Shown: positions 10,629 to 49,074 of the stretch, one piece after another
Position numbering within the stretch: the first letter of the stretch is position 1
How the letters are laid out: each line of letters begins with the position of its first letter
Position numbers and translations under genes: made by a program
Source: Streptomyces misionensis
GTDB taxonomy: Bacteria; Actinomycetota; Actinomycetes; Streptomycetales; Streptomycetaceae
Assembly (NCBI RefSeq): GCF_900104815.1
Contig: NZ_FNTD01000004.1
Location: forward strand, 7,129,001 to 7,193,000
Length of the DNA: 64,000 nucleotides
Direction of reading: 5' to 3'
Notes under the pieces: model-generated
What the model saw: the letters and a program-made list of their open reading frames with translations, nothing else
Database searches by the model: none
What the model was told of the DNA's origin: nothing

Positions 10629-10632
10629 GCCC

Positions 10633-30329: not shown

Positions 30330-30353
30330 CCACGACTTCAGGAGCCGTCCTCC

Positions 30354-32407: not shown

Positions 32408-32444
32408 ATGCCCCACGCTCCCGTGACAACGAGGTCCCCGTGCC

Positions 32445-34018: not shown

Positions 34019-35215
34019 ATGACCAGCACCAAGAACGAGCACGTCGAGCGTGGTCCGGAGGCGGCCGGCGAAACGGTCGGAGCGGTCTTCGTCGGCTGTG
34101 GATACGCCGCGGACTTCTACGGCGCCACCCTGCCCAATTACCCCCACATCGAGGTCAAGGGCGCCTTCGACGTGGAAAGCGAACGCGCCGCCTCGTTCGC
34201 CGGTGAGTACGGCGGACGCGTCTTCGGCGACCTCCGGGAGGTGCTGGCCGATCCGGACGTCTCCCTCGTGGTGAACCTGACCCCCGTGTCCCAGCACTAC
34301 ACCGTGACCAAGGCGGCCCTGCTGGCGGGCAAGCACGTCTACTCGGAGAAGCCGCTCGCCTCCACGCTCCCGGAGGCGACGGAACTCGTCGAACTGGCCA
34401 GGGAGAGGGGGCTGCTGCTGTCGAGTGCCCCGTCGACCGTCTTCAGCCAGTCCGCGCAGACGCTGCTGCGCGCCGTCGGCGACGGACTGATCGGCAAGCC
34501 GCGTCTGGTGCACGCCTCGCTCGACATGGGCGCCCTGGCCTTCATGCCGTACACGCAGTGGCGCAGCCGGCGGGGTGTGCCCTGGCCCTATCGGGACGAG
34601 ATCGCCAACGGCTGCGTCATGGAACACGCGGGCTACCAACTCAGCTGGCTGGTGGCCATGTTCGGGCCGGTGGTGCGGATGGCGGCCCACACCTCGCTCC
34701 AGCTCGGCGGACAGTGGCCCGAGCACACCGAGGTGGCACCCGACATCTCCCTCGGCTTCCTGGAGTTCGCCGACGGCACCGTGTGCAGACTCAGCATCGG
34801 CTGGGTCGCGCCGGCCGATCTGTCCCTCACCGTCATCGGCGACCAGGGGACCCTCTCGGTGGGCGACGTATGGCAGGCGTCGGCCCCGGTCATGCTGCGG
34901 CGCAACGCCAGGACGAGCGGCAAGACCAACGCCTACCTCGGCGAACCGGAACAGCTGCCCTTCGTGATTCCGCCCGCCCGGCACCGCTACGACGACACCC
35001 ACGACCTCACGGTCGGCGCGGGTGTGGCTGACATGGCCATGGCAATCATCAAGGGGGAGCAGCCCTTCCTGAGCGCCGACTTCTCCCTGCACGTGCTCGA
35101 CGTCAGCCTCCGGCTCTCCGAGGGGCGAGGCGTCATGGAGGACGTCCCGGTGCGCGCCGGCGACGACAAGAAGCTCGCGGTGGCGCCCGCGGGCGCCGGT
35201 ACGGCGGCCCGGTGA
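34019..35215 (+). CDS. Gfo/Idh/MocA-family dehydrogenase (first copy)
   Basis: A 398-residue NAD(P)-dependent sugar or cyclitol dehydrogenase. After ~20 charged residues comes the Rossmann motif VFVGCGYAADFYG, then the conserved YSEKPLASTLPEA with the family's catalytic-site Lys. The usual second-domain motif GGGxxxDxGxH is replaced by NGCVMEHAGYQLSWLVAMFGP, an unusual version that keeps a His. A long C-terminal tail (~25 residues) extends beyond the fold. TGGAGGGGACAT gives a good ribosome site. It should oxidise or reduce a sugar hydroxyl/keto group or a sugar-like ring; substrate unknown. First gene of a plus-strand trio with a second dehydrogenase and an MFS exporter. Confidence 0.85.
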   Translation: MTSTKNEHVERGPEAAGETVGAVFVGCGYAADFYGATLPNYPHIEVKGAFDVESERAASFAGEYGGRVFGDLREVLADPDVSLVVNLTPVSQHYTVTKAALLAGKHVYSEKPLASTLPEATELVELARERGLLLSSAPSTVFSQSAQTLLRAVGDGLIGKPRLVHASLDMGALAFMPYTQWRSRRGVPWPYRDEIANGCVMEHAGYQLSWLVAMFGPVVRMAAHTSLQLGGQWPEHTEVAPDISLGFLEFADGTVCRLSIGWVAPADLSLTVIGDQGTLSVGDVWQASAPVMLRRNARTSGKTNAYLGEPEQLPFVIPPARHRYDDTHDLTVGAGVADMAMAIIKGEQPFLSADFSLHVLDVSLRLSEGRGVMEDVPVRAGDDKKLAVAPAGAGTAAR

Positions 35216-35293
35216 ACCGGGGCCGCGCGGGCGGGCCCCGGGACACAGCGGCGCCCCGCGGCGCCGGAGGCACCATTCAGCGAAGGAGACGAC

Positions 35294-36403
35294 ATGGCTG
35301 ACCCGTTGCGGATCGGCGTGGTGGGCGCCGGCAACATCAGCGGCGAATACCTGGAGACGCTGTCCGCGCTGCCGAACGTGCGGCCCGTACAGGTGGCGAC
35401 GCGCGACCCCGAACGCGCGCGGGCCGTCGTCGCGCGGTTCCCGGGGACGCGGGCGACGAGCCTGCCGGAACTGTACGCCTCGGACGAGGTGGACCTCGTA
35501 CTCGATCTCACGACGCCCGCGGCGCACCTGGAGGTGTCCCGGGCCGCGATCGAGGCGGGCAAGCACCTGTACGGCGAGAAACCGCTCGCCATGACCACCG
35601 GGGAGGCCCGCTCCATCCTCACCGCTGCCTCCACCGCCGGGGTGCGGGTCGGCTGCGCGCCGGACACGGTCCTCGGCACCGGCATCCAGACCGCGCGGGT
35701 GTGCGTGGAGAAGGGCGAGATCGGCACCCCGGTCGCGGCGACCGCCTTCATGACCACGCCGGGGCACGAACGCTGGCACCCCGACCCGGAGTTCTACTAC
35801 CGGCCGGGCGGCGGGCCGCTGCTGGACATGGGCCCGTACTACCTGACCGCGCTGGTGCTGATGCTCGGACCCGTGCGCCGCGTCACCGGACTGTCCTGCG
35901 CCCCACGCCGTACCCGCACGATCGGCAGCGGCCCCCGGGCGGGCACGACCTTCCCCGTGGAGGTGGCCACCCATGTCACCGGGGTGCTGGAACACGAGGG
36001 CGGGGCGCTTTCCACCCTCATGCTGAGCTTCGACGTCTGGCAGAGCACGCTGCCCCGGATCGAGGTGTACGGCACCGAAGGCACCCTGGCGGTACCCGAT
36101 CCGAACAGCTTCACCGGCGACGTCCGCGTCTGCCACGCCGGGGACCGGGAATGGCGGACGGCGCCGGTGCTCGGCGGCTACCGCGGCGTGGCCCGCGGCA
36201 TCGGCGTCGCGGACATGGCGCACGCCATCGCCACGGGCACGCCGCACCGGGCGAGTGCCGAACTGGCCTATCACGTGCTCGACCTCATGGAATCGCTGCT
36301 CGCCGCCGCGGAGTCGGGCGGCAGCCGCCGGGTGGACAGCGGCTTCACCCGCCCCGAACCGGTGCCCGCCGACGCGCGGCCCGAGGACCTGTGCCCGGGA
36401 TGA
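35294..36403 (+). CDS. Gfo/Idh/MocA-family dehydrogenase (second copy)
   Basis: A 369-residue paralogue with little close similarity to the preceding gene. Rossmann motif RIGVVGAGNISGEYLETL, EKPLAMTTGEA with the Lys, and GGGPLLDMGPYYLTALVLMLGPV where a Tyr stands at the usual catalytic His position; this DMGPYY form is common in actinobacterial members. CEbb-type sheet residues and a GTEGTLAVPDPN strand complete the C-terminal domain. AAGGAGACGAC precedes the ATG. Two different enzymes of this family side by side often carry out oxidation and later reduction around one ring intermediate, so they may bracket a single keto-sugar or keto-cyclitol transformation. Inferred. Confidence 0.87.
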   Translation: MADPLRIGVVGAGNISGEYLETLSALPNVRPVQVATRDPERARAVVARFPGTRATSLPELYASDEVDLVLDLTTPAAHLEVSRAAIEAGKHLYGEKPLAMTTGEARSILTAASTAGVRVGCAPDTVLGTGIQTARVCVEKGEIGTPVAATAFMTTPGHERWHPDPEFYYRPGGGPLLDMGPYYLTALVLMLGPVRRVTGLSCAPRRTRTIGSGPRAGTTFPVEVATHVTGVLEHEGGALSTLMLSFDVWQSTLPRIEVYGTEGTLAVPDPNSFTGDVRVCHAGDREWRTAPVLGGYRGVARGIGVADMAHAIATGTPHRASAELAYHVLDLMESLLAAAESGGSRRVDSGFTRPEPVPADARPEDLCPG

Positions 36404-36462
36404 GGACCCGGCGAGCGGAACCTCGGTCAAGGACATCCCCCGTCGGCAAGTGGAGGTGAACG

Positions 36463-37677
36463 GTGCGCAAATGGCTCGCCGGGCCGGACGCGGAGGCCGA
36501 ACCGGCCGCGGTGTGGGCGCTGTGCGCGCTGATGGCCGCGACGTTCTGCGTCGTGACCACGGAGCACCTGCCCGCCGGTCTGCTGCCGCAGATCTCGTCC
36601 GGGCTCGGGGTGTCGCTGTCGGTCGCGGGACAGCTGGTCACGGGCTACGCCCTCACCGTGATGCTGCTCACCGTGCCGCTGACCTACCTCACCCGGCGGA
36701 TTCCGCGCCGGCCGCTGCTGCTGGGGCTGATGACGCTGTTCGTGCTGGCCGGCCTGGGCTCGGCGGCCGCGCCGAACTACGCCCTGCTGCTGGCCTCGCG
36801 CGCCGTGACGGCCCTGGTGCACGCCGTGTTCTGGGCGGTGGTCACGGTCACCGCCACGGCGCTGTTCTCCCCGGCGGTGCGGGGCCGGATCCTCGCCCTG
36901 GTGTACGGGGCCACCTCGCTGGCGACGATCGTGGGCGTCCCGGCCGGAAGCTGGATCGGCCAGCACGCGGGGTGGCGTGTGGCGTTCCTGGCCCTGAGCG
37001 GCATCGGGCTGGTCGCGCTGGCCGTCGTGGCCGTCTTCCTGCCCGCCACGGCCGTCTCCCGGACGCGCGACGACGACACCGCGGTCCCCGACACCTCGCG
37101 CTACGTCGTGCTGCTCGTGACCATCGTCCTGGCGCTCGCGGGCCTGTCGATGGCGTTCACCTACACGGTGCCGTTCCTGACGAAGGTGACGGGCTTCTCC
37201 ACGGCGGCGGTCGCCCCGCTCCTGCTGCTGCGCGGCGCGGCCGGTGTCGCCTCGGTCTCCGTCGCGGGCAACCTCGCGGACCGGCACCCGAGGCTGGCGA
37301 CGACGGCACCGGTGGCCCTGCTGTCCGTGTCGCTGATCGGCATGTACCTCGCGGGGACCACACCGGTCCTCGTCGCCGTGCTGATGGCCACCTCGGGCCT
37401 CGCGGTCCTCGTGATGATCACGACGCTGACGAACGAACTGCTGTCCGTCGCCCCCGGCGACCTGTACATCGCCTCCGCCGGGGGAAACGCCGTGTTCAAC
37501 GCGGGCACGGCCGCGGGCGCGGCCTCCGGGGGACTGGTGCTGTCGGACATCGGCGTCCGCGGCACCGCGCTGCTGGGCGGTCTGCTGGCCGCGGCGGCGG
37601 TGGCGGTCCTGCTCGCGGACCAGGCGAGGGGACGCACACGGGGCACGGTGCGGGCGCCGGCCGACGAGTCGCCGTGA
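36463..37677 (+). CDS. MFS transporter (DHA1 type)
   Basis: A 404-residue major facilitator with about twelve helices, starting at GTG 36463 after GTGGAGGTGAAC. Helix one contains ALMAATFCVVTTEHLPAGLLPQI, a pattern shared with AraJ/sugar-efflux and chloramphenicol-exporter members; RRIPRRPLLLG is the cytoplasmic loop 2-3 motif. Placed directly after two sugar-type dehydrogenases, it may export the cluster's product or an intermediate. Substrate unproved. Confidence 0.85.
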   Translation: MRKWLAGPDAEAEPAAVWALCALMAATFCVVTTEHLPAGLLPQISSGLGVSLSVAGQLVTGYALTVMLLTVPLTYLTRRIPRRPLLLGLMTLFVLAGLGSAAAPNYALLLASRAVTALVHAVFWAVVTVTATALFSPAVRGRILALVYGATSLATIVGVPAGSWIGQHAGWRVAFLALSGIGLVALAVVAVFLPATAVSRTRDDDTAVPDTSRYVVLLVTIVLALAGLSMAFTYTVPFLTKVTGFSTAAVAPLLLLRGAAGVASVSVAGNLADRHPRLATTAPVALLSVSLIGMYLAGTTPVLVAVLMATSGLAVLVMITTLTNELLSVAPGDLYIASAGGNAVFNAGTAAGAASGGLVLSDIGVRGTALLGGLLAAAAVAVLLADQARGRTRGTVRAPADESP

Positions 37678-37871
37678 CGCGGAGACACGCACCGGGCGGG
37701 CCGGCGTTGGCGGACCTCGGCGGCCGCGGTGCCGGCACCGCGGCCGGCAGCCGCCACGACGCGGGCACGCACACCGGCATGGCCCAGGCCGTGCGCCGAG
37801 GACGCGCCGCGCCGGCCGTCGTCACCGGTCCGGGGCGGCTCCGTGCGGGCTCACGCTCCGGGCGCGCGCGG

Positions 37872-39080
37872 TCAGCGCAGCAGCAGGGCAGGATCGGCGT
37901 ACACGTGCTCGACGACCTGGCCCGCGGCGCCGAGTACCGCCGCGTTCTTGCCGAGTGAGGAGACCGCGACGGTCGGCACCTGCCCGTAGAGCCCGCCGGC
38001 GCGCAGCGCCGCCTCCACCGCGGGGGTGGTCCACGCGGCGAGCGCGGAGAAGATGCCGCCGAGCACGATCGAGTCCGGATCGAGCACCTTGACCACGGCG
38101 GTCAGCGCCCGTCCCAGCGCGTCGCCGGCCCGCAGCACCGCCTCGGTCGCGTCCCGGTCGCCGGCGTCGAGCAGCGTGGTCAGCGCCGACAGCGGCTCCA
38201 ACGGGCCCACGGCGGCCGCCGAGTCCCCGAGCCCTGCGGCCCGCAGAATCGCGTCCCGCCCGGCGACACGCTCCAGACAGCCGCGCGCGCCGCAGGCACA
38301 CGGCTCGCCGGCCGGATCCACCTGGAGATGGCCCAGTTCCCCCGCGTAGCCGTGCGCCCCCTGGAACACCCGGCCGTCGAGCACCACGCCCGCGCCGATG
38401 CCGATCTCCCCGGACACGTGCACGAAGTCGCCCAGGACGGCGTGCCCCGCGCCGAACCACAGTTCACCGAGCGCCGCCAGGTTCGCCTCGTTCTCCGCAC
38501 CGGTCGGCAGCTTCAGCCCGGACAGACCCAGGTCGGTGAAGTCCGCCGCCGGGACGTCGCGCCAGGCGAAGTTGGGGGCGCGGAGCATTCCGGCGCGGTC
38601 CACCAGGCCGGGCAGCGCGACGTTCGCCCCGATCACCGGCAGGCCTTGCTCGTTCGCGGAGTCCACCGCCTGCTGGGCCAGCCGGGCCAGCGCGGCGGCG
38701 ATCTCGCCGGGCTTGCGGTTGCGGTTGTCCGCCGCCACCAGGAGCCGGTAGCGCACCCGCCGGCCCAGGTCGAGCACGGCCGCGGCCAGGTAGTCGACGT
38801 TCACTTCGAGCCCGAGCCCCGCCGCGCCCGCGCCGTTGACGGCCACGCCTATGCCCGGGCGGCCCCGGTCCCCTTCGTGCAGCATGTCCCCGTCGTGCAC
38901 GAGACCGGCCTCCGCGAGCACCGCGATGAGGTTCGAGACGGTCGTCTTGGTGAAGCCGGTGAGCACGGCGAGCCGGGCCCGGGTGACCGGCTGGTGCTCG
39001 GCGATCACCCCGAGCAGTACGGCCAGGTTCCGCTCCCGCATCGAGGCATGGCGGATGGGCTCGCGGATTTCGGATGGCAT
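37872..39080 (-). CDS. ROK-family transcriptional regulator within the cluster
   Basis: A 402-residue ROK regulator. wHTH: MRERNLAVLLGVIAEHQPVTRARLAVLTGFTKTTVSNLIAVLAEAGLV. ROK domain: TGAENEANLAALGEL, VSGEIGIGAGVVLDG, YAGELGHLQV and the zinc motif CACGARGCLERV. A -10-like TAGCCT ends six bases before the ATG and there is no ribosome site, suggesting a leaderless message. It lies between the plus-strand dehydrogenase/MFS trio and the minus-strand biosynthetic set, so it is a strong candidate for a cluster-specific regulator sensing a sugar-like ligand. Confidence 0.87.
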   Translation of the reverse strand: MPSEIREPIRHASMRERNLAVLLGVIAEHQPVTRARLAVLTGFTKTTVSNLIAVLAEAGLVHDGDMLHEGDRGRPGIGVAVNGAGAAGLGLEVNVDYLAAAVLDLGRRVRYRLLVAADNRNRKPGEIAAALARLAQQAVDSANEQGLPVIGANVALPGLVDRAGMLRAPNFAWRDVPAADFTDLGLSGLKLPTGAENEANLAALGELWFGAGHAVLGDFVHVSGEIGIGAGVVLDGRVFQGAHGYAGELGHLQVDPAGEPCACGARGCLERVAGRDAILRAAGLGDSAAAVGPLEPLSALTTLLDAGDRDATEAVLRAGDALGRALTAVVKVLDPDSIVLGGIFSALAAWTTPAVEAALRAGGLYGQVPTVAVSSLGKNAAVLGAAGQVVEHVYADPALLLR

Positions 39081-39172
39081 GGGGCAAGGCTAGTCGGTGG
39101 GTGCGCGCCGGCCGCGCCGGCCTGCTGCGAAGCCGCTCGGGCCACGGTGGCGCGGCTCCCGGCGGGCGGGGC

Positions 39173-40744
39173 TCAGCACTCCCCGTCCCGCAGCAGCCTC
39201 GCCGCGCACCGGCCCGCCCTGGCCGCCAGCGCCATGATGGTGAGGGTCGGGTTCTGCCAGCCGCCGGAGGGGAAGCAGGCGCCGTCGGCGACGAAGACGT
39301 TCGGCGCGTCCCAGCAGCGGTTGTCACGGTCCAGGACCGAGTCGGCCGGGGAGTCGCCCATGCGGGCGGTCCCGAGGTCGTGGACGTTGCGGCCGGGGGC
39401 GGTGAGCGCCTGCGCGACCGAAAGGTCTTTCAGACCGGCGATCGAGGCCGCCAGTTCCACCTCCTGCCGCATGGCGCCGTAGAGCCGCTCCTCGTGCGGT
39501 CCGTAGCCGCAGTCGATGACGGGGACGGGGACGCCCCAGCGGTCGCGCTTGTCGCCGAGCTTCACCCGGTTGTGCCAGTACGGCAGCATCTCCCCCTGTG
39601 CGTCGATGCCGCCCAGCACCGCGCCGTCGCCGGTGCCCCGTTGCAGGGTCACCCACAGGGCGAAGGGACGGACGTCGCCCTTTCCCGGCTGGGCGGGGGG
39701 TACGAGCAGCCCGCACTGGCGTCCGGCCGCCGGGAGCACCGAGCCGGCCGAGTATCCGGGGAGGACACCCGAGGACGTCACCAGCGGATGGTCCATGAGG
39801 CCGCGGCCCAGCCAGCCGCTGCTGTTGCCGAGACCCCGTGGGTGGCGTGGACTGTGCGAGTTCAGCATCAGCCGGGCGGTCTCGATGGTGCCGCCGCACA
39901 GGAAGACGACGCGGGCCCGGGCGTGGTGCCGCCGCCCGGTGGTGACGTCCACGTAATCGACCCCGGTCGCCCGGCCGTTCACCGGGTCGGTGGTCACCGA
40001 GGTGACGCGGGCGCCCGGCCGCAGCGTCAGCCGCCCGGTGCGTTCGGCCGCGGTGAGGGCGGTGGCCTGCACCGTGAACCCCGGCCAGCCGCCGGCGCCC
40101 GCGTCGGCCGGTACGAAGCGCACCGGGACCGGGCGTGTGCCCGGGCGCCGGTAGGCCCGCCGGAAGTCCGCCTCGGCGGGAGTGAGCGCGGGCGGCTCGC
40201 CCCGGAAGCGGCCATGGGGGAGCTGCGCGAGATCCTCGGCGGTTCCCCGCAGACCGAGGAGTCCCTCGACGGCCTCGTAGGCGTCGGCGAGATCCTCGTA
40301 ACCGATCGGCCAGCGCAGCGAGTGGCCGTCCAGGTCGGCCGCCTGCGTCTCGAACGGCGACAGCCGCAGCGCCGATCCGCCCCAGATCAGCGAGCGGCCG
40401 CCGACCTGCATGCCCCGGATCCAGGTGTAGGGCAGCGCGGGCGGGGTCTCGTAGGGGTGTTCCAGGTCGTCCACGAAGAGGTGCGGGCCCCGGGGCGCGA
40501 AGTTGAAGTGGCTGCGCTGGACCGGCTGCCGCGGCCAGGCGTCGGCGTCCTCGCGGTCGGGCGCGGTGTACGACGCGGCCCGGTCCGGGATCTGGGCGGG
40601 CTCGCGCGCGGGGCCGGCCTCCAGCATCAGGGCGTCGAACCCGGCCTCGGTCAGCTCCTTCGCGGCCCAGGAGCCCGCGAACCCGGAACCGACCACGATG
40701 GCGTCGTACGCCGGGCCCGCCTGTTCCGTCTCGATGTCGTTCAC
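39173..40744 (-). CDS. GMC-family FAD oxidoreductase
   Basis: A 523-residue flavoprotein alcohol oxidase/dehydrogenase. ADP-binding motif DAIVVGSGFAGSWAAKELTEAGFDALMLEAGP at the N-terminus; FAD/substrate loop GMQVGGRSLIWGGSALRLSPFE; C-terminal FAD segment NVFVADGACFPSGGWQNPTLTIMALAARAG, where the Asn of QNPT and the His of NVHDLGTARMGD are the usual catalytic positions. It resembles the glucose/fructose dehydrogenase and pyranose oxidase branch, which also includes the 6'-dehydrogenases of aminoglycoside pathways and the C3 oxidases of C-glycoside breakdown. No signal peptide. Last gene of a minus-strand set, 100 bases after the StrG-like gene. Confidence 0.86.
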   Translation of the reverse strand: MNDIETEQAGPAYDAIVVGSGFAGSWAAKELTEAGFDALMLEAGPAREPAQIPDRAASYTAPDREDADAWPRQPVQRSHFNFAPRGPHLFVDDLEHPYETPPALPYTWIRGMQVGGRSLIWGGSALRLSPFETQAADLDGHSLRWPIGYEDLADAYEAVEGLLGLRGTAEDLAQLPHGRFRGEPPALTPAEADFRRAYRRPGTRPVPVRFVPADAGAGGWPGFTVQATALTAAERTGRLTLRPGARVTSVTTDPVNGRATGVDYVDVTTGRRHHARARVVFLCGGTIETARLMLNSHSPRHPRGLGNSSGWLGRGLMDHPLVTSSGVLPGYSAGSVLPAAGRQCGLLVPPAQPGKGDVRPFALWVTLQRGTGDGAVLGGIDAQGEMLPYWHNRVKLGDKRDRWGVPVPVIDCGYGPHEERLYGAMRQEVELAASIAGLKDLSVAQALTAPGRNVHDLGTARMGDSPADSVLDRDNRCWDAPNVFVADGACFPSGGWQNPTLTIMALAARAGRCAARLLRDGEC

Positions 40745-40844
40745 CGTCGTGCCGCTCCAGTCGGTGTCGGGCAGCGCGTCGCCGCGTGCGTCGGGTCTGT
40801 GGCGGTCGCGTGTCGGCCGCGGACGCGGTCACCGGTACGCGCGG

Positions 40845-41489
40845 TCATGCCGCGCCGTCCTCGCGTGCGCGCAGCCAGCGGATCGGGCCGTCGATGCCGG
40901 TGTGGTGCGGCGTCGCGAGCCCTTCGTGGAAGAGGGATTCGGGGATCACCCGGAAGTCGAAACTGACCCGGGTCCGCTCGGAGGCGTTGCGCTGGTTGCC
41001 GTGCATGAGGTTCGCGCTGTCGAACACGAGCATCTGCCCGTAGCGCATGGGGTGCGGCCGGAAGTCCTCGGCGCCCTCGCTCGACTCGATCCACAGGCTG
41101 TTCTCGGGGGTCGTCCGCGTGAGCGGCACCCAGCAGGTGATCTCGCACGGGTTGTGGCCGCCGCTGCGGTCGCGGTGGTAACTGCCGACGCCATGACGGC
41201 CCGGCAACTGGATGCGCCAGTTCGGCACGTGCTGGTAGCGGACGTCCTCGCCGACCAGTTCGGTGATCACCGTCCGGACGAACTCCCGGTACAGCGCGGC
41301 GAACGGCTCGACGTCGTAGAGCCGGCGGTGCATCGCGGAGGACTGGTCCCCGAAGCCCGGCTGCTCCTCGCCCTCGGGCGCGTACCGCCGGTGCCACCGG
41401 GCCAGGTCCGGCACGCCGGTGGCCGCGCGCGTCGCGCCGGCGAAGTCGAACCGCCGGGTGTCGTACGGGACGATCAGTTTGCCGAGCAT
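40845..41489 (-). CDS. StrG-like Fe(II)/2-oxoglutarate dioxygenase-family protein
   Basis: A 214-residue protein with the layout of the StrG family of streptomycin clusters and of phytanoyl-CoA-type oxygenases: WRIQLPGRHGVGSYHRD, then EITCWVPLTRTTPENSLWIES, and LMHGNQRNASERTRVSFDFRVIP. The probable iron ligands are His105 and Asp107 (HRD) and His163 (MHGN), with Arg174 for 2-oxoglutarate, so the facial triad is intact. It would hydroxylate, epimerise or desaturate a cluster intermediate, possibly a sugar or cyclitol. It overlaps the end of the glycosyltransferase gene by 16 bases, so the two are co-translated. Confidence 0.82.
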   Translation of the reverse strand: MLGKLIVPYDTRRFDFAGATRAATGVPDLARWHRRYAPEGEEQPGFGDQSSAMHRRLYDVEPFAALYREFVRTVITELVGEDVRYQHVPNWRIQLPGRHGVGSYHRDRSGGHNPCEITCWVPLTRTTPENSLWIESSEGAEDFRPHPMRYGQMLVFDSANLMHGNQRNASERTRVSFDFRVIPESLFHEGLATPHHTGIDGPIRWLRAREDGAA

Positions 41490-42895
41490 GCGTCCTCCCC
41501 CGGGGCGACGGGAGCGATCGTGAAGCGGGGCTCGAAGCCGATGAGGTGACTCAGCTGCAGGTCGACGCCGCCGATGTTGCTGAAGTCCTCGCCGTGGAAG
41601 ACGTTCTTGCGGATGAACTCGGCGGTCTTGCGCCGGTACCCGGAGCGGGCCAGCAGGAGGGCGAGCGTGGCCAGGTGGCGGGGGGTGCCCCGCTGGTGCA
41701 GTGCGGTGAAGGACCGGCGCAGCGCGTCGATCATCCGGTCCGCGCCGTCCCGGTCGGGGATGTCCAGGCCGCGCATCCCGAGCCGCCCGAGGAACGCCCG
41801 CTGGACGGGGGTCGGTTCGAGGTCGAAGGCCGACCGTTCCTTGGCCTCTCCACGGATCAGCGACAGCAGCAGGTCGTCGTGGTCGGCGTAGTACCGGTGG
41901 CCGCGCCCGGCGGGCGGTACCGCCTTGGCGACGAGCAGGTCGGCCGCGTGGGCGACGTCGACGTCACCGAGGCGCGCCGCGAGGTGGGTGGTGAATTCGG
42001 TGTCCGTGCGCAGGGCGGTGGGCAGCAGCGACTCGGCCGGCAGCAGCTCGGAGGTGGCCGCGTGGGTGGACGCCATGACCGGTGTGCCGATGAACGAGGC
42101 CTCCACCAGCACCCGTCCGAAGGTCTCCAGGGAGGAGGTGCTGGGGAAGAACAGCACGTCCATCTCCCGGTACTCCCGCCACAGCCGGGCCCGGTCCACC
42201 GGCGGGAGCCAGGTGTAGCCGGGGACCGGGGGTTCCGCCTGGGCCCGCCCCGCGCGCCGTGGGCCCTCGCCGATCGCCACCAGCTCGAAGGCCCCCGGAG
42301 CGCGCCGGTGCAGTTCGCGCTGGAGGCTGACCGCCTGCGCGTGGTTCTTGTCGTCGGTGAGCCGTCCGACGAAGCCGACACGGGTGGGGCCCTTGCCTCC
42401 CGAGCCGGTCCAGGACCCGGCCAGCTCCCCGGGGAACCAGCGGGTCAGGGGGTAGCAGACGGCCTGCGTGGAGGCCGCGAGGCCGGGGAACAGCAGGCTG
42501 TACAGGGCGAGCGAGTAGCGCGACGAGTGGTAGAGCACGTCGCCCGGACGCACGTAGGGCGCCGAGAGGGCTTCTTGCTGGAGGTAGCCGTTCCACAGCG
42601 CGGTGCGCGCGTCCCGGACGATCCTGAAGTCGAGCCCGAGCCGTTCGCGCAGATGGAAGTACAGGTAGGCGTGCGGTCCCACCGTCGCGACGACGACGTC
42701 GCAGCCCGTCAGGGCCTCGCGCGCGGCCTCGTCGCTGCGGAAGAGTTCGACCATGTCGTGGGGTCTGGCCCGCACCTCGGAGCTTTCGTCCAGCAGCCGG
42801 CCGATCTCCGTGTAGGCGAAGTTCGCGCCGTCCTTGCCGGGGTGGCCGGCGTAGCTGTGGAAGCGGTGGAAGCCGGTGACCAGGGCATGTCCCAT
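41474..42895 (-). CDS. GT-B glycosyltransferase (group 1)
   Basis: A 473-residue glycosyltransferase. N-terminal acceptor domain begins MGHALVTGFHRFHSYAGHPG. The donor domain has TRVGFVGRLTDDKNHAQAVSL, EGPRRAG, YREMDVLFFPSTSSLETFGRVLVEASFIGTPVMAS with the retaining-type E-x7-E region (SLETFGRVLVE). The last ~100 residues (from about VQRAFLGRL) are an extra helical tail not typical of GT4 enzymes. ATG 42895 is preferred; an in-frame ATG at 42946 overlaps the SHMT-like gene's stop and is possible. It should glycosylate the cluster's aglycone or sugar-like core from a nucleotide-sugar donor. Confidence 0.83.
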   Translation of the reverse strand: MGHALVTGFHRFHSYAGHPGKDGANFAYTEIGRLLDESSEVRARPHDMVELFRSDEAAREALTGCDVVVATVGPHAYLYFHLRERLGLDFRIVRDARTALWNGYLQQEALSAPYVRPGDVLYHSSRYSLALYSLLFPGLAASTQAVCYPLTRWFPGELAGSWTGSGGKGPTRVGFVGRLTDDKNHAQAVSLQRELHRRAPGAFELVAIGEGPRRAGRAQAEPPVPGYTWLPPVDRARLWREYREMDVLFFPSTSSLETFGRVLVEASFIGTPVMASTHAATSELLPAESLLPTALRTDTEFTTHLAARLGDVDVAHAADLLVAKAVPPAGRGHRYYADHDDLLLSLIRGEAKERSAFDLEPTPVQRAFLGRLGMRGLDIPDRDGADRMIDALRRSFTALHQRGTPRHLATLALLLARSGYRRKTAEFIRKNVFHGEDFSNIGGVDLQLSHLIGFEPRFTIAPVAPGEDACSAN

Positions 42896-42935
42896 GAGAG
42901 TGCCGCCTTTCGCTGCTGTCGGTTCCGGCCCCGGC

Positions 42936-44213
42936 TCAGAGTTCATCGCCCGCGGCCGCGGTGCTCGCGGCCAGATCGCCGAGCGCGTCGTCGGGGCGCG
43001 GCCGGGTGCGCAGCGCGTCCGCGCGCTTGCGCAGCAGGGTGATCTGCGGTGCGTCCCAGTCCCGGGCGCGCAGTGCCACCAGCACGATGTCGGCGAGTTC
43101 GCGCACGTCGTCCTCGTCGAAGCCGCGGGAGGTGATCGTCGGAGTGCCCAGGCGCAGCCCGCTGGCGACGAAGGGGGGCCTCGGGTCGGCGGGCAGCATG
43201 TTGCGGTTGGACAGGATTCCCAGGTCCTGGAGGCGGCCCTCGGCCTCGCGGCCGGTCAGCGCGGTACGGGTGAGGTCGACGACCAGCAGGTGGGTGTCGG
43301 TGCCGCCGGTCACCAGGTCGAGTCCGCCGTCGAGCAGCAGGCCGGCGAGCAGCCGCGCGTTGGCGACCACGCGTTCCTGGTAGACGCGGAAGGCGGGGGT
43401 CGCCGCGTCCTGGAGGGTGGCCGCGAGCGAGACGAGGCCGGCCATCCCGACGGAGGACTGGAGCCCGGGGAAGATCGCCGAGTCGATGCGCGTGCGCAGG
43501 GATTCGGGGCACAGGACGATTCCGCCGCGCGTGCCGCGCAGCGTCTTCTCCACGGAGGTGGTCACCACGGTCTCCGGCTGGGCGCACGGGTTGGCGTGCA
43601 GCCCGGCGGCGACCAGGCCGGCGATGTGCGAGATGTCCGCGACGAGGGTCGCCCCGACGTCGCGCGCCACCTCGCCGAACAGCGCGAAGTCGACCGCCCT
43701 GGGATAGGCGGAGTACCCGGCGACGATGACGCGCGGGCGTTCCCGCTCGGCGATCTCCCGGATGTCGTCGTAGGGCAGCAGACCGGTCTCGGGGTCCACC
43801 GAGTACGGGACGACCCGGTAGAGCTCCGAGACGATGTGCTTGGGGTGGCCGTGCGAGAGGTGGCCCCCGGAGGTCACGGCCATGGACAGCAGGGTGTCGC
43901 CGGGCCGCAGCAAGGCGCGGTAGGCGGCGAGGTTCGCCAGGGAGCCGGAGGCGGGCTGCACATTGGCGTGCTCGCCGCCGAACACGGCGCGTGCGCGTTG
44001 CGCCGTGATCCTTTCGACCTCGTCGAAGATCGAGGTGCCGGCGTAGGGCTTGCGCCCGACGTGCCCCTCGGCGGAGCGGAACTGGGCCACTCCCCAGGTG
44101 TGGTTGTCGCGCACCGCCGCGATCGGCGCGTTGGACGCGGCGATGAGGTCGATGCTCTCCAGGTAGTGCCGGTCCTCGCGGTGCAACAGCCGCGCAAGTT
44201 CGAGGTCACGCAT
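42936..44213 (-). CDS. SHMT-like PLP enzyme with altered active site
   Basis: A 425-residue fold-type I PLP enzyme clearly related to serine hydroxymethyltransferase (for example NVQPASGSLANLAAYRALLRPGD, GGHLSHGHP, DISHIAGLVAAG, SGGTD/HLLVVDL-type blocks). The PLP lysine is Lys223 in VEKTLRGTRGG, Asp193 and His196 are kept, and the substrate-carboxylate Arg is Arg354. But the SENF/SENY motif holding the catalytic Glu reads AASNAP, giving Ser27, the Tyr of KYAEGY is Ser, and the residue before the PLP lysine is Glu222 instead of His. Folate-dependent retro-aldol chemistry is therefore doubtful; another aldol or transfer reaction is likelier. GAGGTG lies six bases before the ATG. Confidence 0.87.
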   Translation of the reverse strand: MRDLELARLLHREDRHYLESIDLIAASNAPIAAVRDNHTWGVAQFRSAEGHVGRKPYAGTSIFDEVERITAQRARAVFGGEHANVQPASGSLANLAAYRALLRPGDTLLSMAVTSGGHLSHGHPKHIVSELYRVVPYSVDPETGLLPYDDIREIAERERPRVIVAGYSAYPRAVDFALFGEVARDVGATLVADISHIAGLVAAGLHANPCAQPETVVTTSVEKTLRGTRGGIVLCPESLRTRIDSAIFPGLQSSVGMAGLVSLAATLQDAATPAFRVYQERVVANARLLAGLLLDGGLDLVTGGTDTHLLVVDLTRTALTGREAEGRLQDLGILSNRNMLPADPRPPFVASGLRLGTPTITSRGFDEDDVRELADIVLVALRARDWDAPQITLLRKRADALRTRPRPDDALGDLAASTAAAGDEL

Positions 44214-44409
44214 CAGGGCACCTCATGAGTTCAGCGGGTGGTGGAAGAACGGGCGTCAGGGCCCGCGGAGATCGCGACAGATGGCGGACGCCCCGGTCGG
44301 CATGGCGGGTCCTGCGGAAGGAACGGAGCAGGGCAGGAGGGATTCCGGTCGAAGCCGAGGGGATCGTCGTGCTCTGCGTGAAGCCGCGCGCTGGGTCAGT
44401 CGAGAAGGA

Positions 44410-44457
44410 TTGATCCAGATGGTGGATTAATACAGCACGCGGTCATGGGCGTGTCAA
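44410..44457 (-). promoter_or_regulatory. Regulated promoter of the minus-strand cluster operon
   Basis: On the minus strand: -35 TTGACA (44457-44452), 19-base spacer, -10 TATTAA (44432-44427). An imperfect dyad covers the -10 and the presumed start: arms TTGATCCA (44410-44417) and TGGATTAA (44423-44430), seven of eight positions symmetric, five-base centre. The transcript would have a ~200-base leader to the SHMT-like ATG at 44213. Confidence 0.7.
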
Positions 44458-44491
44458 CGATTCGGACTTGTTTGGCCCGGCGAATTGCCGC

Positions 44492-46423
44492 TCAGTTCGC
44501 GGGCAGTCCCGTCAGCACGGCCCGCGCCACCAGGTCGCCGTGCCGGAAGGCGGCCGCGTTCGTGCCGGGTATGGCGAACGCCCGGGCGCCGCGCAGCGAG
44601 GTGTTCCAGCCCAGTGCGAAGAGCGCCGGGTGCGCCCTGCCGTCGGCGCCGACCAGGCGCCCGAGCCCGTCGACCGCGATCCGTCCGGTGGAGGTCCGGT
44701 ATCCGGTGGCGGGATCGCTCAGGGTCTCCTCCGTCGCGGCCCCGGTGGCGTGCAGCGAGGCCAGGAGCGGATCGGCGGTGCCCGTGACGGTCGGATCGGG
44801 CACCCGGGCGTCGATGAGCACCGCGGCCGCGGCCTCGCCCGGGTGGTTGGCGCCGCCGGCCCGGTACCGCCCCGCCGTACGGTCGAGCCGCACGCGCATT
44901 CCGGAGCCGAGCGGCCGGACCACGCCCGCGCGGCACAGCGCCAGCAGTTCCTCCACGCGGAACGCGGGCGGACCGCTCGCGACCAGGTTGAACAGGGAGA
45001 GCCAGGCGCCGTCGAGTTCCTCGGCCCGGGACCGGGCGTCGAGACGGGCGCGGAGCCGGGGGAGTTGCTCGAAGAAGAGCAGCAGCGCACGGTAGACGGC
45101 GGTGTCGGCGGACCGGGCCGGATCGGCGCAGCGCCGGAGTTCGTGTTCCAGCAGCGCGGAGAAGTGCGCGCGGAAGGCGTCCGCGGAAGGGAAGACGGCG
45201 TGCCGCAACGGGGCGCGGAGGGCGTCGAGATCGAACCGCCGGGCCGGGTCGGGGACGGCCGCCGCGACGAGCCGGTCCACCTCCTCCGGGGTCGCGACGG
45301 CATGGCGTTCCTCGAACTCCCGCCACGAGACGGTGGTGTTGTGCGGATCGGCCGCGAACAGCTCGCGGTAGTAGGCGTGGCTCAGGTCCTTGCGGATGAT
45401 CGGCCAGACGTCCCGCTGGAAGTCGAGCGTCTCGGGCCCCGCGAGCAACTCCGCGGCCGCTTCGGTGAAGTAGCGCAGCTTCGGCTCGGGCTCCAGCGCC
45501 AGCCGGTGGGTCGGCTTGCACCGGTAGGGCAGCCCCCGGCGGGAGCCGACGAGCAGCCGGGGCTCGCGGCCCGAGGGCACGTAGCGCAGGTCGCCGCCGC
45601 CGTCGCGGGTGAAGCGGCCGCCACGGCCCTGTGTGAGCAGGGCCATCAGATCGAAGAAGGCCAGCCCCATGCCCCGCACCAGCACATCGGCGCCGGGCGG
45701 TACCGCCGACAGGTCGGTCTCGGCGACGAAGCCCGGCGGCAGATAGGTCAGGCCGTGCTCCGCCGCGAACTCGGCGGCGGCCGCCTCCTCGCCGCGCGGC
45801 CTCGCGTCGAGGTGGCCGAGCGCGAGCACCACGGTGTGGGCGTCGAGCGACGATCCGTCGGCCAGGCGCACCCGTTGGACGCCGTGTGGGCCGCCGGTGA
45901 GTGCCACGGCCCGCCCCTCGCGCACGGTCACCCGTACCTCGGGCGGTGCCGCGCGGGTCACCTCGCCGAGGAACCAGGACAGATAGGCGCCCTGGAGGCG
46001 CCTGGTGGCGAACGAGTCGGGCCCGGTCTCGCGCACGTCTGCCCGGAGGCGGGGATCGACGGGCGGGAGGAGCCCGGTGGCCGTGGCCGCCGCCCAGGCG
46101 GCCAGCGACGGTCCGGGGTGCGCCGGGCCGTCGCAGCGCACGGCTTCGCCGGGGAAGAGGGTGACGTCCTTGGCGAAGGAGTTCATGCGCATCAGCGGCG
46201 ACTGCCCTTCGCGCCAGATCCGCCCGGGGCCGGCGGGGTACGGGTCCACCAGGACGATCTCGACCGGCCGGCCCGGTGTCAGGAGCGGGGCGTTGGCCAG
46301 CAGTCGTTCGACCAGGCCCACGCCCACCGGGCCGGCGCCGATGACCGCGACCCTGGCGGTTCCCCTGGTGTGAGCGGTGGTGGACGACCCGATCGGGTCG
46401 GGGGTCATGGACATGGCGGACAT
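44492..46423 (-). CDS. FAD/NAD(P)-binding protein (NAD_binding_9-like, large)
   Basis: A 643-residue flavoprotein. N-terminal dinucleotide motif ARVAVIGAGPVGVGLVERLL, then LVDPYPAGPGRIWREGQSPLMRMNSFAKD, HTVVLALGHLDARP and VLVRGMGLAFFDLMALLTQGRGG; a C-terminal FALGWNTSLRGARAFAIPGTN closes the FAD domain. The pattern matches FAD-NAD(P)-binding proteins sometimes found in natural-product clusters; its middle 250 residues are helical with no known domain. It may be an N- or C-oxygenase. The start is uncertain: ATGs at 46423, 46414 and 46408 are in frame, and a promoter just upstream would favour a leaderless 46414 or 46408. The gap to the SHMT-like gene carries that operon's own promoter. Confidence 0.75.
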   Translation of the reverse strand: MSAMSMTPDPIGSSTTAHTRGTARVAVIGAGPVGVGLVERLLANAPLLTPGRPVEIVLVDPYPAGPGRIWREGQSPLMRMNSFAKDVTLFPGEAVRCDGPAHPGPSLAAWAAATATGLLPPVDPRLRADVRETGPDSFATRRLQGAYLSWFLGEVTRAAPPEVRVTVREGRAVALTGGPHGVQRVRLADGSSLDAHTVVLALGHLDARPRGEEAAAAEFAAEHGLTYLPPGFVAETDLSAVPPGADVLVRGMGLAFFDLMALLTQGRGGRFTRDGGGDLRYVPSGREPRLLVGSRRGLPYRCKPTHRLALEPEPKLRYFTEAAAELLAGPETLDFQRDVWPIIRKDLSHAYYRELFAADPHNTTVSWREFEERHAVATPEEVDRLVAAAVPDPARRFDLDALRAPLRHAVFPSADAFRAHFSALLEHELRRCADPARSADTAVYRALLLFFEQLPRLRARLDARSRAEELDGAWLSLFNLVASGPPAFRVEELLALCRAGVVRPLGSGMRVRLDRTAGRYRAGGANHPGEAAAAVLIDARVPDPTVTGTADPLLASLHATGAATEETLSDPATGYRTSTGRIAVDGLGRLVGADGRAHPALFALGWNTSLRGARAFAIPGTNAAAFRHGDLVARAVLTGLPAN

Positions 46424-46455
46424 TAATCCACGTGGTTTTCTAAATATGCAATGGG
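46416..46455 (-). promoter_or_regulatory. AT-rich promoter region of the FAD-protein gene
   Basis: On the minus strand TTGCAT is followed after 17-18 bases by GATTAA/ATTAAT, immediately before the candidate ATGs. The sequence GTGGATTAAT here also occurs (opposite orientation) in the SHMT operon promoter, and CCACGTGG forms a small palindrome beside it. A shared regulator is plausible; hexamer assignment is tentative. Confidence 0.45.
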
Positions 46456-46608
46456 CGTGCGGAGCGGGATCGTGGTCGGGTCTCGGCGGGTCGTGTCGTC
46501 CCGTTATATGCGCGCTGGTCCCGGCCTTCGAGGGGGCGTCTACGGCGCTGCTCCCGTCCCGGCCGTGCCCGTGGTGACGCCCTTCGAGTGTCATCGCGTG
46601 CAGGGGTC

Positions 46609-46638
46609 TTGGCAGCCGGGCCCGGCAGTGCTTAGCTT
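46609..46638 (+). promoter_or_regulatory. xylA promoter
   Basis: -35 TTGGCA (46609-46614), 18-base spacer, -10 TAGCTT (46633-46638), giving a ~30-base leader that ends in CAGGAGCGAGC before the xylA ATG. No copy of the ATGTT/AACAT site seen before xylF was found. Confidence 0.6.
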
Positions 46639-46674
46639 TGGTCCACATCGTTGACGAATTGATCAGGAGCGAGC

Positions 46675-47823
46675 ATGACGAGCTTCCAGCCCACCCCCGA
46701 AGACCGGTTCTGCTTCGGGCTGTGGACCGTCGGCTGGCAGGAGCGCGACCAGTTCGGCGAGGCCACCCGCGCGCCGCTGGACCCGGTGCGCACGGTGCAC
46801 AAGCTGGCCGAGCTCGGCGCCTGGGGCGTGACCTTCCACGACGACGACCTGCTGGCCGTCGAGCCGAACCGGGACGCCGCGATCGCCGCGTTCCGCAAGG
46901 CCCTCGACGAGACCGGCCTGGTGGTGCCCGCCGCCACCACGGACCTGTTCAAGCACCCGGTGTTCAAGGACGGCGCCTTCACCTCCAACGACCGCGACGT
47001 ACGCCGTCACGCGATCCGCAAGGTGATGCGCAACCTGGACCTGGCGGCCGAACTCGGCGCCAAGACCTATGTGTTCTGGGGCGGCCGGGAGGGCGCGGAG
47101 AGCGACGCGGCCAAGGACGTGCGCGTGGCGCTCGATCGCTTCCGCGAGGCGATCGACTACCTCGCCGGATACGTCAAGGAGCAGAACTACGGCATGCGCT
47201 TCGCCCTGGAGCCCAAGCCGAACGAGCCCCGCGGCGACATCCTGCTGCCGACCATCGGCCACGCCCTCGGCTTCATCTCCACCCTGGAGCACCACGAGAT
47301 GGTCGGCCTCAACCCCGAGGTGGGGCACGAGCAGATGGCCGGGCTCAACTTCGTCCACGGCATCGCGCAGGCCCTGTGGCAGGACAAGCTCTTCCACATC
47401 GACCTCAACGGCCAGCACGGCCCGCGCTACGACCAGGACCTGGTGTTCGGCCACGGTGACACCAAGAGCGCGTTCTTCCTCGTCGACCTGCTGGAGAGCA
47501 GCGGCTGGGAAGGCCCGCGGCACTTCGACTACAAGCCCGGCCGCACCGAGGACGCCGAGGACGTGTGGGTCTCGGCCGAGGCCAACATGCGCACCTACCT
47601 GATCCTCAAGGAGCGCGCCAAGGCGTTCCGCGCCGACCCCGAGGTCCAGGAGGCCATGCGGGCCTGCCGGATCGAGGAGCTGGCCGTGCCCACCATCGCG
47701 GCGGGCGAGAGCCACGAGGACCTGCGCGCCGAGGAGTTCGACGCCGAGGCCGCCCGCGACCGCGGCTACCACTACTCCCGTCTCAACCAGCTGGCGGTCG
47801 AGCACATGCTCGGCAGCCGCTGA
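46675..47823 (+). CDS. xylA: Xylose isomerase
   Basis: A 382-residue class I (actinobacterial-type) xylose isomerase, converting D-xylose to D-xylulose with two Mg/Mn/Co ions; also acts on glucose. Active-site blocks are visible: GVTFHDDDL with His55, [18 protein letters not shown] with metal-binding Glu and catalytic Lys, [10 protein letters not shown], and [22 protein letters not shown] with metal ligands. Length matches Streptomyces enzymes. No xylulokinase (xylB) gene is adjacent or elsewhere in the window. It stands 13 kb from xylFGH, separated by the biosynthetic-looking cluster. Confidence 0.95.
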
Positions 47824-47956: not shown

Positions 47957-48712
47957 ATGTCGACGTCCCCCGCGGTCCAGCTGTGGACCCTGCGCGACCA
48001 CCTGGCCGCCGACCGGCGCGCCACGCTGCGCCGCCTGGCCGGCCTCGGCTACGGCGCCGTCGAGCCCTTCGAGGCCACCGAGGACCCGGCCGGCCTCCGG
48101 GCGATCACGGACGACCTCGGCCTCACCGTGTGCAGCGCCCACTCGCACCGACTCCTGGACAGCGAACCCGGCCCGATCTTCGAGGCGGTGGCCACGCTGG
48201 GCACCGACCTGCTGGTCCTGCCCTCCGGCCTCGCCGAGGACGCCTTCGCCGGTCACGACGCGCTGAAACGCACCGCCGACACGATCAACGGCCTCGCCGA
48301 GCAGGCGGCCGGACACGGCATCAGGCTCGGCTACCACAACTACTGGTGGGAGTTCGAGTCCGAGGTCGGCGGCCGGCCCGCCCTCGAGTCCCTCGCCGAA
48401 CTCCTCGCCCCCGAGGTCTTCTTCGAGATCGACACCTACTGGGCCGCCCTGGGCGGCGCCGACGTACCGGACGTCCTGACCCGGCTCGGCGACCGGGTAC
48501 TGGCCCTGCACCTGAAGGACGGGCCGATCGCCAAGGGCGTCCCGCACACCGCGCTCGGGCGCGGCGAGATGCCGACCGAGCGGATCCTGGCCGCGGCTCC
48601 GGCCGGCGCCCTGCGCATCGTGGAACTCCAGACGTCCGACGAGGACCTCTTCGCGGCGCTCGCGGACAGCCGCGCGTTCCTGGGCTCGCTCACGGACCCG
48701 ACCCGGGCCTGA
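47957..48712 (+). CDS. Sugar phosphate isomerase/epimerase-type TIM barrel
   Basis: A 251-residue AP_endonuc_2 (IolE/IolI-like) barrel. Metal-site elements: Glu in AVEPFEATED, His in SAHSHRLLD, YHNYWWEFES, FEIDTYWAALGG (Glu/Asp), HLKDGPIAKG (His, Asp) and a final Glu in RIVELQTSDED. Such enzymes isomerise, epimerise or dehydrate keto-sugars and inosose-type rings, and some act as lyases on 3-keto-glycosides. AAAGGCAGAGACG precedes the ATG. It follows xylA by 133 bases. Together with the Gfo/Idh/MocA and GMC genes nearby it may belong to a keto-sugar route. Confidence 0.83.
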   Translation: MSTSPAVQLWTLRDHLAADRRATLRRLAGLGYGAVEPFEATEDPAGLRAITDDLGLTVCSAHSHRLLDSEPGPIFEAVATLGTDLLVLPSGLAEDAFAGHDALKRTADTINGLAEQAAGHGIRLGYHNYWWEFESEVGGRPALESLAELLAPEVFFEIDTYWAALGGADVPDVLTRLGDRVLALHLKDGPIAKGVPHTALGRGEMPTERILAAAPAGALRIVELQTSDEDLFAALADSRAFLGSLTDPTRA

Positions 48713-49074
48713 CGCCCGCCCGTCCGGGCCCGGTGCCCGAACACCTCGCGTACCCGCCCGCGTCCCGACACCCGGACAACCCGTGCCGGACCCGACGCCC
48801 GCACACCTCGCGTACGTGCCCCTGGCTCCGACGCCCGGACACCTCGCGTACGCGCTCCTGGCCCGACGCCTGAACACCCCGTACACCTCACGGACTTGAC
48901 GCCTGATCCCGCCGACGTGTCCGCGTCGTGACGCCGGGGGAGCACGCGCACCTCCCCGGGCCTCCCGTCCGGACCGCCGCGCACCGGGCGAGGTCCGCCA
49001 TGCCGCCGCGGGGCGGCCCCACCCCGAGACAACGACCCCACCGTGTTCCGCCGAGCGAGAGGACGAGAGACCCG
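48713..49074. other. 362-base gap between the TIM-barrel and GH3 genes
   Basis: No convincing gene. The left half is the degenerate tandem repeat described separately; the right half (about 48930-49074) is GC-rich without clear promoter hexamers and ends in GAGAGGACGAGAGACCCG before the GH3 ATG. Confidence 0.5.
48733..48930 (+). repeat. Degenerate ~35-bp tandem repeat array
   Basis: Five to six head-to-tail units start near 48733, 48767, 48794, 48830, 48865 and 48898 (unit lengths 34, 27, 36, 35, 33). A typical unit opens GACGCCCG, continues with the exact 13-mer ACACCTCGCGTAC (at 48741, 48803 and 48839) and ends CTGGCYC. Later units drift. Units adjoin without spacers, so this is not a CRISPR array. 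Confidence 0.8.

Follow-up and report, generated by a model that had tools for sequence, protein, structure and literature searches.

We propose, with a probability of about 60%, that positions 34019–51480 of the window (the whole 64,000-nucleotide stretch of Streptomyces misionensis DNA analysed here), one MFS transporter gene excepted, form a previously uncharacterised biosynthetic gene cluster controlled by a ROK regulator. It comprises about eleven rare genes that stay linked across several soil bacteria and that probably make and export a small sugar-bearing, amino-acid-like compound. Our best reading is a pentose-linked cluster for an exported, glycosylated and oxidised metabolite of the beta-hydroxy-amino-acid type; that the product is an N-oxygenated glycosyl amino acid is a tentative suggestion. 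No description of the cluster was found in the open-access literature among the matches listed, as judged from the listings.

Extent and recurrence of the cassette

The preliminary description placed a cluster of nine genes at 34019–46423. Codon-position GC gene calling combined with Pfam and NCBIfam recovered all nine, including two Gfo/Idh/MocA proteins that are indeed distinct (only 31% identity between Gfo2 of the window and Gfo1 of the related locus L012), but the proposed end at 46423 was wrong: a xylose isomerase, a TIM-barrel isomerase and a GH3 glycosidase, reaching 51480, travel with the block in the related loci L012 and L013 (Table 1). The GH3 protein scored 968 bits against the NCBIfam model NF052329 (cut-off 1050), and the best solved-structure matches of the GMC oxidoreductase are glucose dehydrogenase and fructose dehydrogenase, followed by pyranose oxidase. 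The cassette contains no PKS, NRPS, terpene or RiPP core that we could see, nor any NDP-sugar, amino-acid-activating or peptide-forming gene.

Table 1 Features of the cassette, with coordinates in the window; percentages are identities in related loci (L numbers)
Feature	Position	Strand	Evidence
Gfo1, Gfo/Idh/MocA dehydrogenase	34019..35215	+	PF01408 + PF22725; 81% in L012 and L013, at cluster
Gfo2, second Gfo/Idh/MocA dehydrogenase	35294..36403	+	83% and 86% in L012, L013
MFS transporter, Cmx/CmrA-type efflux likeness; outside conserved cassette	36463..37677	+	NF033135 207 bits, cut-off 400
ROK2 regulator	37872..39080	-	PF00480 + HTH; 67–88% in L012–L015 and L017
GMC oxidoreductase, sugar-oxidase-like	39173..40744	-	PF05199/PF00732; 76–79% in L012–L015
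StrG-like Fe(II)/2-oxoglutarate oxygenase	40845..41489	-	
GT-B glycosyltransferase	41474..42895	-	PF00534; database copy 473 aa; ORF open to 42946
SHMT-like PLP enzyme, S-V-E-K-T clade	42936..44213	-	PF00464; motif, residue changes, tree
FAD/NAD(P) monooxygenase-like protein	44492..46414	-	PF13454; database copy 640 aa; alternative start 46423
Operator-like site TTTGGTCCANNNCGTTGACGAAT	46637..46659	+	in the gap from which the FAD and xylose isomerase genes diverge
Xylose isomerase, second genomic copy	46675..47823	+	TIGR02631 644 bits, above cut-off 447
XI2, xylose-isomerase-like TIM-barrel sugar isomerase/epimerase	47957..48712	+	PF01261; 66–76% in L012–L015
GH3 glycosidase, beta-xylosidase/alpha-arabinosidase type	48928..51480	+	PF00933/PF01915/PF14310; 79–82% in L012, L013

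Co-occurrence in other genomes, the check named in the preliminary description itself, bore the grouping out. The genes FAD-SHMT-GT-2OG-GMC-Gfo1-Gfo2-ROK form a single block at 75–88% identity in Streptomyces sp. TRM68416 and S. abyssomicinicus, with different flanks. Because all eleven cassette genes (MFS excluded) recur in two further species at 75–91% identity within different flanks, their grouping goes beyond chance. The core ROK-FAD-SHMT-GT-2OG is present in five other genomes, and its genes occur jointly in 5 of 15 GT loci, spanning three genera and two families. At nine of these 15 loci the GT is the sole query gene in common, besides weak ABC-ATPase matches in two. Distribution is very sporadic: at E <= 1e-50 the GT was found in one of 394 class-level genomes, namely the window's own.

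The most widely spread pair of the cassette is SHMT and GT. A GT relative lies on a contig of equal size for 15 of the 43 best SHMT proteins, and the pair occurs in Actinomycetota and Cyanobacteriota and, with pairing judged by equal contig size, on 12 further contigs. In Nostoc, where the pair occurs without the rest of the core, its neighbours are two aminotransferases, an SDR, a DAO, an LLM monooxygenase and an efflux-type MFS; another neighbour is 52% identical to the asparagine synthase that accompanies two GT2-type genes in the S. lycii cluster. Asparagine synthase and GT2 are not common to all clusters, and the company of the SHMT–GT pair in Nostoc and S. lycii is biosynthetic.

Exporter, regulator and operator-like site

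The transporter first named as a built-in exporter is the only one of the nine genes not conserved with the block. We rejected it as the conserved exporter: its best match in five relatives is 49% identical and lies on a contig other than that of the cluster. L012–L015 share a different MFS, absent from the window, which scores best against the DHA2/EmrB efflux model, the L012 copy falling below the curated cut-off (216 bits versus 230). The regulator, by contrast with the exporter, was rightly assigned to the cluster, as ROK2 is co-inherited with the core; it probably senses a pentose or pentoside.

A nearly cluster-specific 23-bp operator-like site lies 16 bases ahead of the xylose isomerase gene. 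It separates the divergent halves in three Streptomyces; its neighbours are MFS/ROK2 in Micromonospora and GT2 in S. lycii, and these positions suggest common control. L015 has only the variant TTTGGACCA, with no match to the site in its genome within 3 mismatches, and the genome of the window has a second place matching with 3 mismatches. Conservation ahead of the isomerase may partly reflect the ribosome-binding region. No conserved perfect palindrome was found as a ROK2 operator.

A distinct SHMT clade

In the SHMT tree, 46 of 76 rows group in one clade with support of 100/100, apart from housekeeping SHMT. The tree omitted P0187 (fusion), P0196 (canonical, 555 aa), P0212 (fragment) and two of every three proteins among P0216–P0292, and the placement of the long branch P0215 is unsure (tool warning). 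The tree counts two label changes, with 0% of bootstrap trees having one, because P0258 is mislabelled: it falls among the canonical SHMTs, against its automatic group label.

The cluster enzyme shares with housekeeping SHMT the fold family, the PLP lysine and the active-site Asp, His and Arg, but is only 39–44% identical to the three other SHMT copies of its own genome and carries S-V-E-K-T in place of the housekeeping T-T-H-K-T. All seven cluster SHMTs retain K226, D197, H200, S172 and R357, the PLP catalytic set. In the same seven the residue preceding the PLP lysine is E and SEN is replaced by ASN; the canonical THK motif, Y51 and Y60 of folate SHMT are absent in favour of VEK, S51 and P60. 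Two of the other three SHMT copies in this genome likewise vary at position 60. The motif scan of P0216–P0292 listed deviations only where the pattern matched, so that proteins with no match (for example, P0217) lie outside it. L-threonine transaldolases, with the same fold family, PLP lysine and active-site Asp/His/Arg, are another close comparison.

Glycosyltransferase and flavoprotein

The glycosyltransferase has a GT-B fold and a Glycos_transf_1 domain, as expected of the GT4 type (predicted model pLDDT 89.7). Among the 50 solved-structure matches listed, the first are sucrose-phosphate-synthase-like folds and MshA, with BshA and SenB among those that follow, at TM-scores of only 0.30–0.50 over the query. 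MshA, BshA and SenB, GT4-type small-acceptor glycosyltransferases, share the GT-B fold with the cassette protein but only 11–20% identity in the structural alignments listed.

The large FAD protein was correctly noted and is more exactly of the PF13454 type. Its only match among solved chains is 8cp2, an aspartate N-hydroxylase (301 bits); the function of 8cp2/8cp5 (FzmM-type) as L-aspartate N-hydroxylase is described in PMC10404684. Our alignment combined the protein from the window with 9 of the 15 further proteins listed at 57% or more and set them against 15 of the 104 listed at 43–50%; the latter belong to a widespread actinobacterial FAD family that is the nearest kin outside the clade. 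Like the hydroxylase, the protein keeps Asn62 at the flavin, as do all 26 aligned sequences. However, the aspartate-binding arginine cluster (R13, R276, R416 and R577) is incomplete in the clade: R13 is V or T and R577 is I or L in 10 of 10 cluster-clade proteins aligned, whereas R416 is kept and 276 falls in a poorly aligned stretch. At positions 409–413 the clade differs from the L-aspartate enzyme, but so does the wider family, and the alignment is poor there. Because two substrate arginines are replaced throughout the aligned clade, we dropped aspartate N-hydroxylation and nitrosuccinate formation, suggested by 8cp2, as a specific claim.

Xylose isomerase

The cassette isomerase has the family match and catalytic motifs of a xylose isomerase, and in the printed alignment one of 382 residues separates it from PDB 6n98, the xylose isomerase of Streptomyces sp. 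F-1; a literature search found no paper linking 6n98 to a cluster. The genome's other copy is 69–70% identical to it. Since the L014 and L015 isomerases (65–69%) are about as distant as that copy, sequence comparison suggests a cassette-specific isomerase clade for the Streptomyces members only. We also considered a role as a self-resistance copy, for which the evidence points neither way.

Alternative readings

The preliminary label 'aminoglycoside-like' leaned in part on the StrG-like enzyme, and that likeness is real. The protein has the fold, HxD...H motif and 2OG-binding Arg of an Fe(II)/2OG oxygenase (motif and Arg common to two genus relatives), belongs to the same small family as StrG of streptomycin-type clusters and is 34–41% identical to five relatives in the genus, one of which is encoded two genes away from a streptomycin kinase of the APH(6) family. 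The GMC protein also matches the paromomycin-pathway oxidase 7dve (E 6e-10, residues 447–515 only). A true aminoglycoside or aminocyclitol cluster is nevertheless very improbable. Unlike streptomycin-type clusters, the cassette and window show no aminocyclitol gene among the genes scanned; neither a cyclitol synthase nor a sugar or cyclitol aminotransferase appeared among 31 of the 48 called window genes plus three other ORFs, and no aminoglycoside kinase turned up in the scanned genes of the cassette and its surroundings. The label is therefore unsupported, and the weakness that the preliminary description itself conceded holds. The conserved partners are instead the xylose isomerase, the xylosidase-type GH3, the distinct SHMT clade and the N-hydroxylase-like flavoprotein. 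The five StrG-like loci were rejected as cluster relatives: none carries the cassette, and the one match (46%) covers 56 residues of a neighbouring ABC gene. What stands of the earlier interpretation is a co-inherited cluster with oxidase and dehydrogenases, GT, PLP enzyme, StrG-like oxygenase and regulator; the aminoglycoside and the named exporter do not.

The main rival, which we consider unlikely, is a catabolic locus for the degradation, under ROK control, of an imported glycoside that contains a pentose and might be a glycosylated amino acid made by another microbe: GH3 would cut it, GMC and Gfo enzymes would oxidise it (3-keto-type), XI2 and an SHMT-like aldolase would cleave it, and xylose isomerase would isomerise the pentose. 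Four of the 15 loci have xylose isomerase, XI2 and ROK2 together with the block, and two of the 15 have GH3 and Gfo1/Gfo2; further Gfo-type genes adjoin GH3 or the isomerase, and XI2 matches best, among solved structures, the TIM-barrel sugar isomerases/epimerases 8bvk, 8tcs and 8tcd. A further neighbour of the block in this genome is a xylF-like ABC importer operon that includes a different ROK, but the operon was not seen beside the block in relatives, where only weak ABC/ROK matches occur (L037 and L039). No xylulokinase-type gene accompanies the isomerase among the cassette genes scanned; the GT-B enzyme, with GT2 and asparagine synthase in relatives, would be unexpected in such a route; and the efflux-type look of the transporters and the patchy distribution also argue against it. 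Against the biosynthetic reading, a sugar-utilisation locus would be expected to hold just such a set: ROK regulator, GH3, two isomerases and several Gfo proteins.

It is also rather improbable that a xylose-utilisation block and a biosynthetic operon are separate neighbours that merely co-travel, an arrangement compatible with our best reading for the operon. Transcription diverges at 46414/46675, the relative L051 retains GH3, MFS497 and the isomerase, the other half being represented in the 19.9 kb examined by just a cut FAD gene, and the S. lycii operon lacks the isomerase in the stretches examined; yet the single operator-like site, which lies between the halves in the Streptomyces, suggests common control, and the halves are joined in four of five operon-bearing relatives. 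Less probable still is a glycoconjugate kept in the cell or on its surface, as an osmolyte, a small redox cofactor resembling mycothiol or a modification of the surface. The small-acceptor enzymes among the GT fold matches would suit it, as would the weak EpsD-model matches of GT2 in L014 and L017 (100 and 132 bits, cut-off 370), but those fold matches have low TM-scores, and rarity, an efflux-type transporter and a StrG-like oxygenase better suit specialised metabolism.

Proposed pathway and significance

The biosynthetic reading accords with the marks of a specialised-metabolite cluster found here: co-inherited tailoring genes, a regulator, an exporter (in relatives; the window's MFS differs) and sporadic distribution. 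In the pathway we infer, the SHMT-clade enzyme would make or break the Calpha–Cbeta bond of a beta-hydroxy-alpha-amino acid independently of folate, and the GT would place a sugar on this small acceptor. The FAD enzyme would act on a substrate that is not aspartate, oxidising its amine or a similar group, and the 2OG enzyme would hydroxylate, desaturate or epimerise the product. Sugar hydroxyls may be oxidised and re-reduced, amounting to epimerisation, by GMC together with both Gfo dehydrogenases, while xylose isomerase, XI2 and GH3 may supply or recycle the pentose part; export would proceed via an efflux MFS.

The cassette offers a concrete, bounded target of 11 genes and one operator-like site, and gives a genomic setting for the xylose isomerase of a solved structure. 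It may, although we hold this tentatively, represent a new non-modular natural-product class in which glycosylated beta-hydroxy-amino acids, assembled by an SHMT clade that does without folate and by its dedicated GT, subsequently undergo N-oxygenation and hydroxylation, with a pentose-sensing ROK switch in Streptomyces. The core-enzyme rules of cluster finders would probably miss such SHMT–GT clusters, and the SHMT clade with its GT partner offers a way of searching other phyla for related clusters.

Conservation and layout of the gene block

Codon-position GC and family searches bore out the nine genes claimed for this region in the preliminary description (the window spans bases 7129001-7193000 of an 8.47-Mb genome in five contigs). 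Two Gfo/Idh/MocA dehydrogenase genes (Gfo1, Gfo2) and an MFS gene lie on the plus strand; the minus strand carries, in order, genes for a PF13454-type monooxygenase-like protein (FAD; database copy 640 aa), an SHMT-like PLP enzyme (SHMT), a GT-B glycosyltransferase (GT; database copy 473 aa), a StrG-like oxygenase (2OG), a GMC oxidoreductase and a ROK regulator (ROK2). At the longest open starts, SHMT and GT overlap by 11 bases and GT and 2OG by 16.

Scanning one genome per species (84,980 species, possibly without the window's own genome) with two peptide patterns gave 15 loci with a GT alignment, a lower bound. The co-occurrence expected of a cluster was found: FAD, SHMT, GT, 2OG and ROK2 stand together in five of the 15 (L012-L015, L017). 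GMC (truncated at a contig end in L014), xylose isomerase (XI) and a second sugar isomerase (XI2) are each present in four (L012-L015), and Gfo1, Gfo2 and a xylosidase-type glycosidase (GH3) in two. In these two, L012 and L013, the genes are 75-91% identical to the window's, with GH3-XI2-MFS497-XI (MFS497 being an efflux-type MFS other than the window's) on one side and FAD-SHMT-GT-2OG-GMC-Gfo1-Gfo2, then ROK2, on the other. The window itself has Gfo1-Gfo2 on the far side of ROK2, in the opposite orientation relative to FAD-GMC, indicating that the genes were kept despite a changed order.

The cassette is rare within the samples searched. Of 394 class-level genomes, just the window's own has GT at E <= 1e-50, and it is likewise the one genome in a set of 21 relatives with SHMT at E <= 1e-150. 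A 2OG match occurs in six of 392 same-genus genomes, including the window's own; the other five are 34-41% identical, and the rest of the cassette is absent at all five loci. In 19.9 kb of L051, a decayed remnant retains a cut FAD gene, the isomerase (90%), MFS497 (91%) and GH3 matching in two frames; other query genes, including the biosynthetic core, were not seen there.

Flanks and neighbourhood

We compared flanks of 19-20 kb (L036-L043) from both sides of L012, L013 and L015 and one side of L014 and L017. None of their called genes matched the window's flanks collinearly; they matched the GH3 and isomerase ends, plus three isolated genes at 34-38%. Further weak matches to Gfo, ABC and ROK genes came from tblastn in L037, L039 and L043. 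Gfo-type genes adjoin GH3 in L037 and L039 and the isomerase in L040 and L043; the window has none beside either. The importer operon next to the cassette was not seen with it in relatives. Going by the gene order of S. coelicolor, the cassette was possibly inserted between the importer and the deformylase and synthase genes.

Features of the window and of related loci
Sequence	Coordinates	Feature
Window	26-1974	Left edge: genes of the aromatic hydroxylase and extradiol dioxygenase types
Window	4715-7057	UvrA-like protein, 780 aa; match begins at position 261 of 924-position UvrA model
Window	24807-24878	tRNA-Ser (anticodon ACT) called by ARAGORN inside LacI-family regulator gene (24430-25458); probably false
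Window	28650-33680	Xylose-type importer operon directly upstream of cassette: xylF-like binding protein (202 bits, cut-off 390), sugar ABC ATPase, permease, second ROK regulator
Window	34019-46423	Nine genes
Window	46637-46659	Operator-like site
Window	55239-58340	Peptide deformylase and 1-deoxy-D-xylulose-5-phosphate synthase genes, beyond cassette
L012, Streptomyces sp. TRM68416		Operator-like site ahead of isomerase
L013, S. abyssomicinicus		Operator-like site ahead of isomerase
L014, Micromonospora sp. KC213		Operator-like site between MFS497 and ROK2
L015, Actinacidiphila paucisporea		
L016, Nostoc mirabile		
L017, S. lycii		Operator-like site between FAD and GT2
L018	6467-9959	~535-aa protein with ATP-grasp protein
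L051, another Streptomyces	9034-15475	Decayed cassette remnant

An operator-like site

The FAD-isomerase intergenic stretch aligns poorly among three Streptomyces, except just ahead of the isomerase and over a shorter stretch at the FAD start. The pattern TTTGGTCCANNNCGTTGACGAAT has a single exact match in the window's genome, at 46637-46659, and matches one other place there with 3 mismatches; no match came from the reversed-pattern controls. Four of the five relatives have one match within 3 mismatches, inside the cluster, and the genome of L015 has none. Within 2 mismatches, the pattern occurs in 5 of 392 genus genomes (the window's own with 0, the remnant genome with 1, three others with 2). 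The site itself is observed, and ROK2 is its candidate binder.

Biosynthetic and catabolic readings

SHMT accompanies GT in one further locus, that of Nostoc, alongside an LLM monooxygenase, a DHDPS-type lyase, an asparagine-synthase-like protein (assigned through 52% identity to that of S. lycii), an SDR, two aminotransferases, DAO and an MFS. The S. lycii locus holds GT2, asparagine synthase, SHMT, GT, 2OG, a further GT2 and ABC-ATPase matches; that of Actinacidiphila has GT2 and, past GMC, C-methyltransferase, epimerase and Gfo genes. In the other nine loci, GT (32-44% identity) is the sole query gene, except that L021 and L026 also show weak matches to an ABC ATPase. A ~535-aa protein without a Pfam match lies near GT in all nine (L018-L026) and a cyanophycin-synthetase-like ATP-grasp protein in eight (the L018 copies scanned, the others assigned by homology); the hosts are beta- and gamma-proteobacteria, Sphingomonadales and picocyanobacteria. 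This set is possibly another undescribed cluster type.

A purely catabolic locus, for a pentose-containing glycoside, is still given a probability of roughly one fifth because the cassette's pentose genes point that way; the constant SHMT-GT pair amid varied tailoring genes weighs against it. The block, its extent, and the enzyme clades and residues are observed. We predict the product type, a glycosylated amino-acid-type metabolite, together with the reaction order, the identity of the sugar and folate independence of the SHMT-like enzyme. Judged against part of the open-access literature, the cassette is provisionally undescribed. The constant SHMT-GT pair with varied tailoring genes across loci fits a biosynthetic family.
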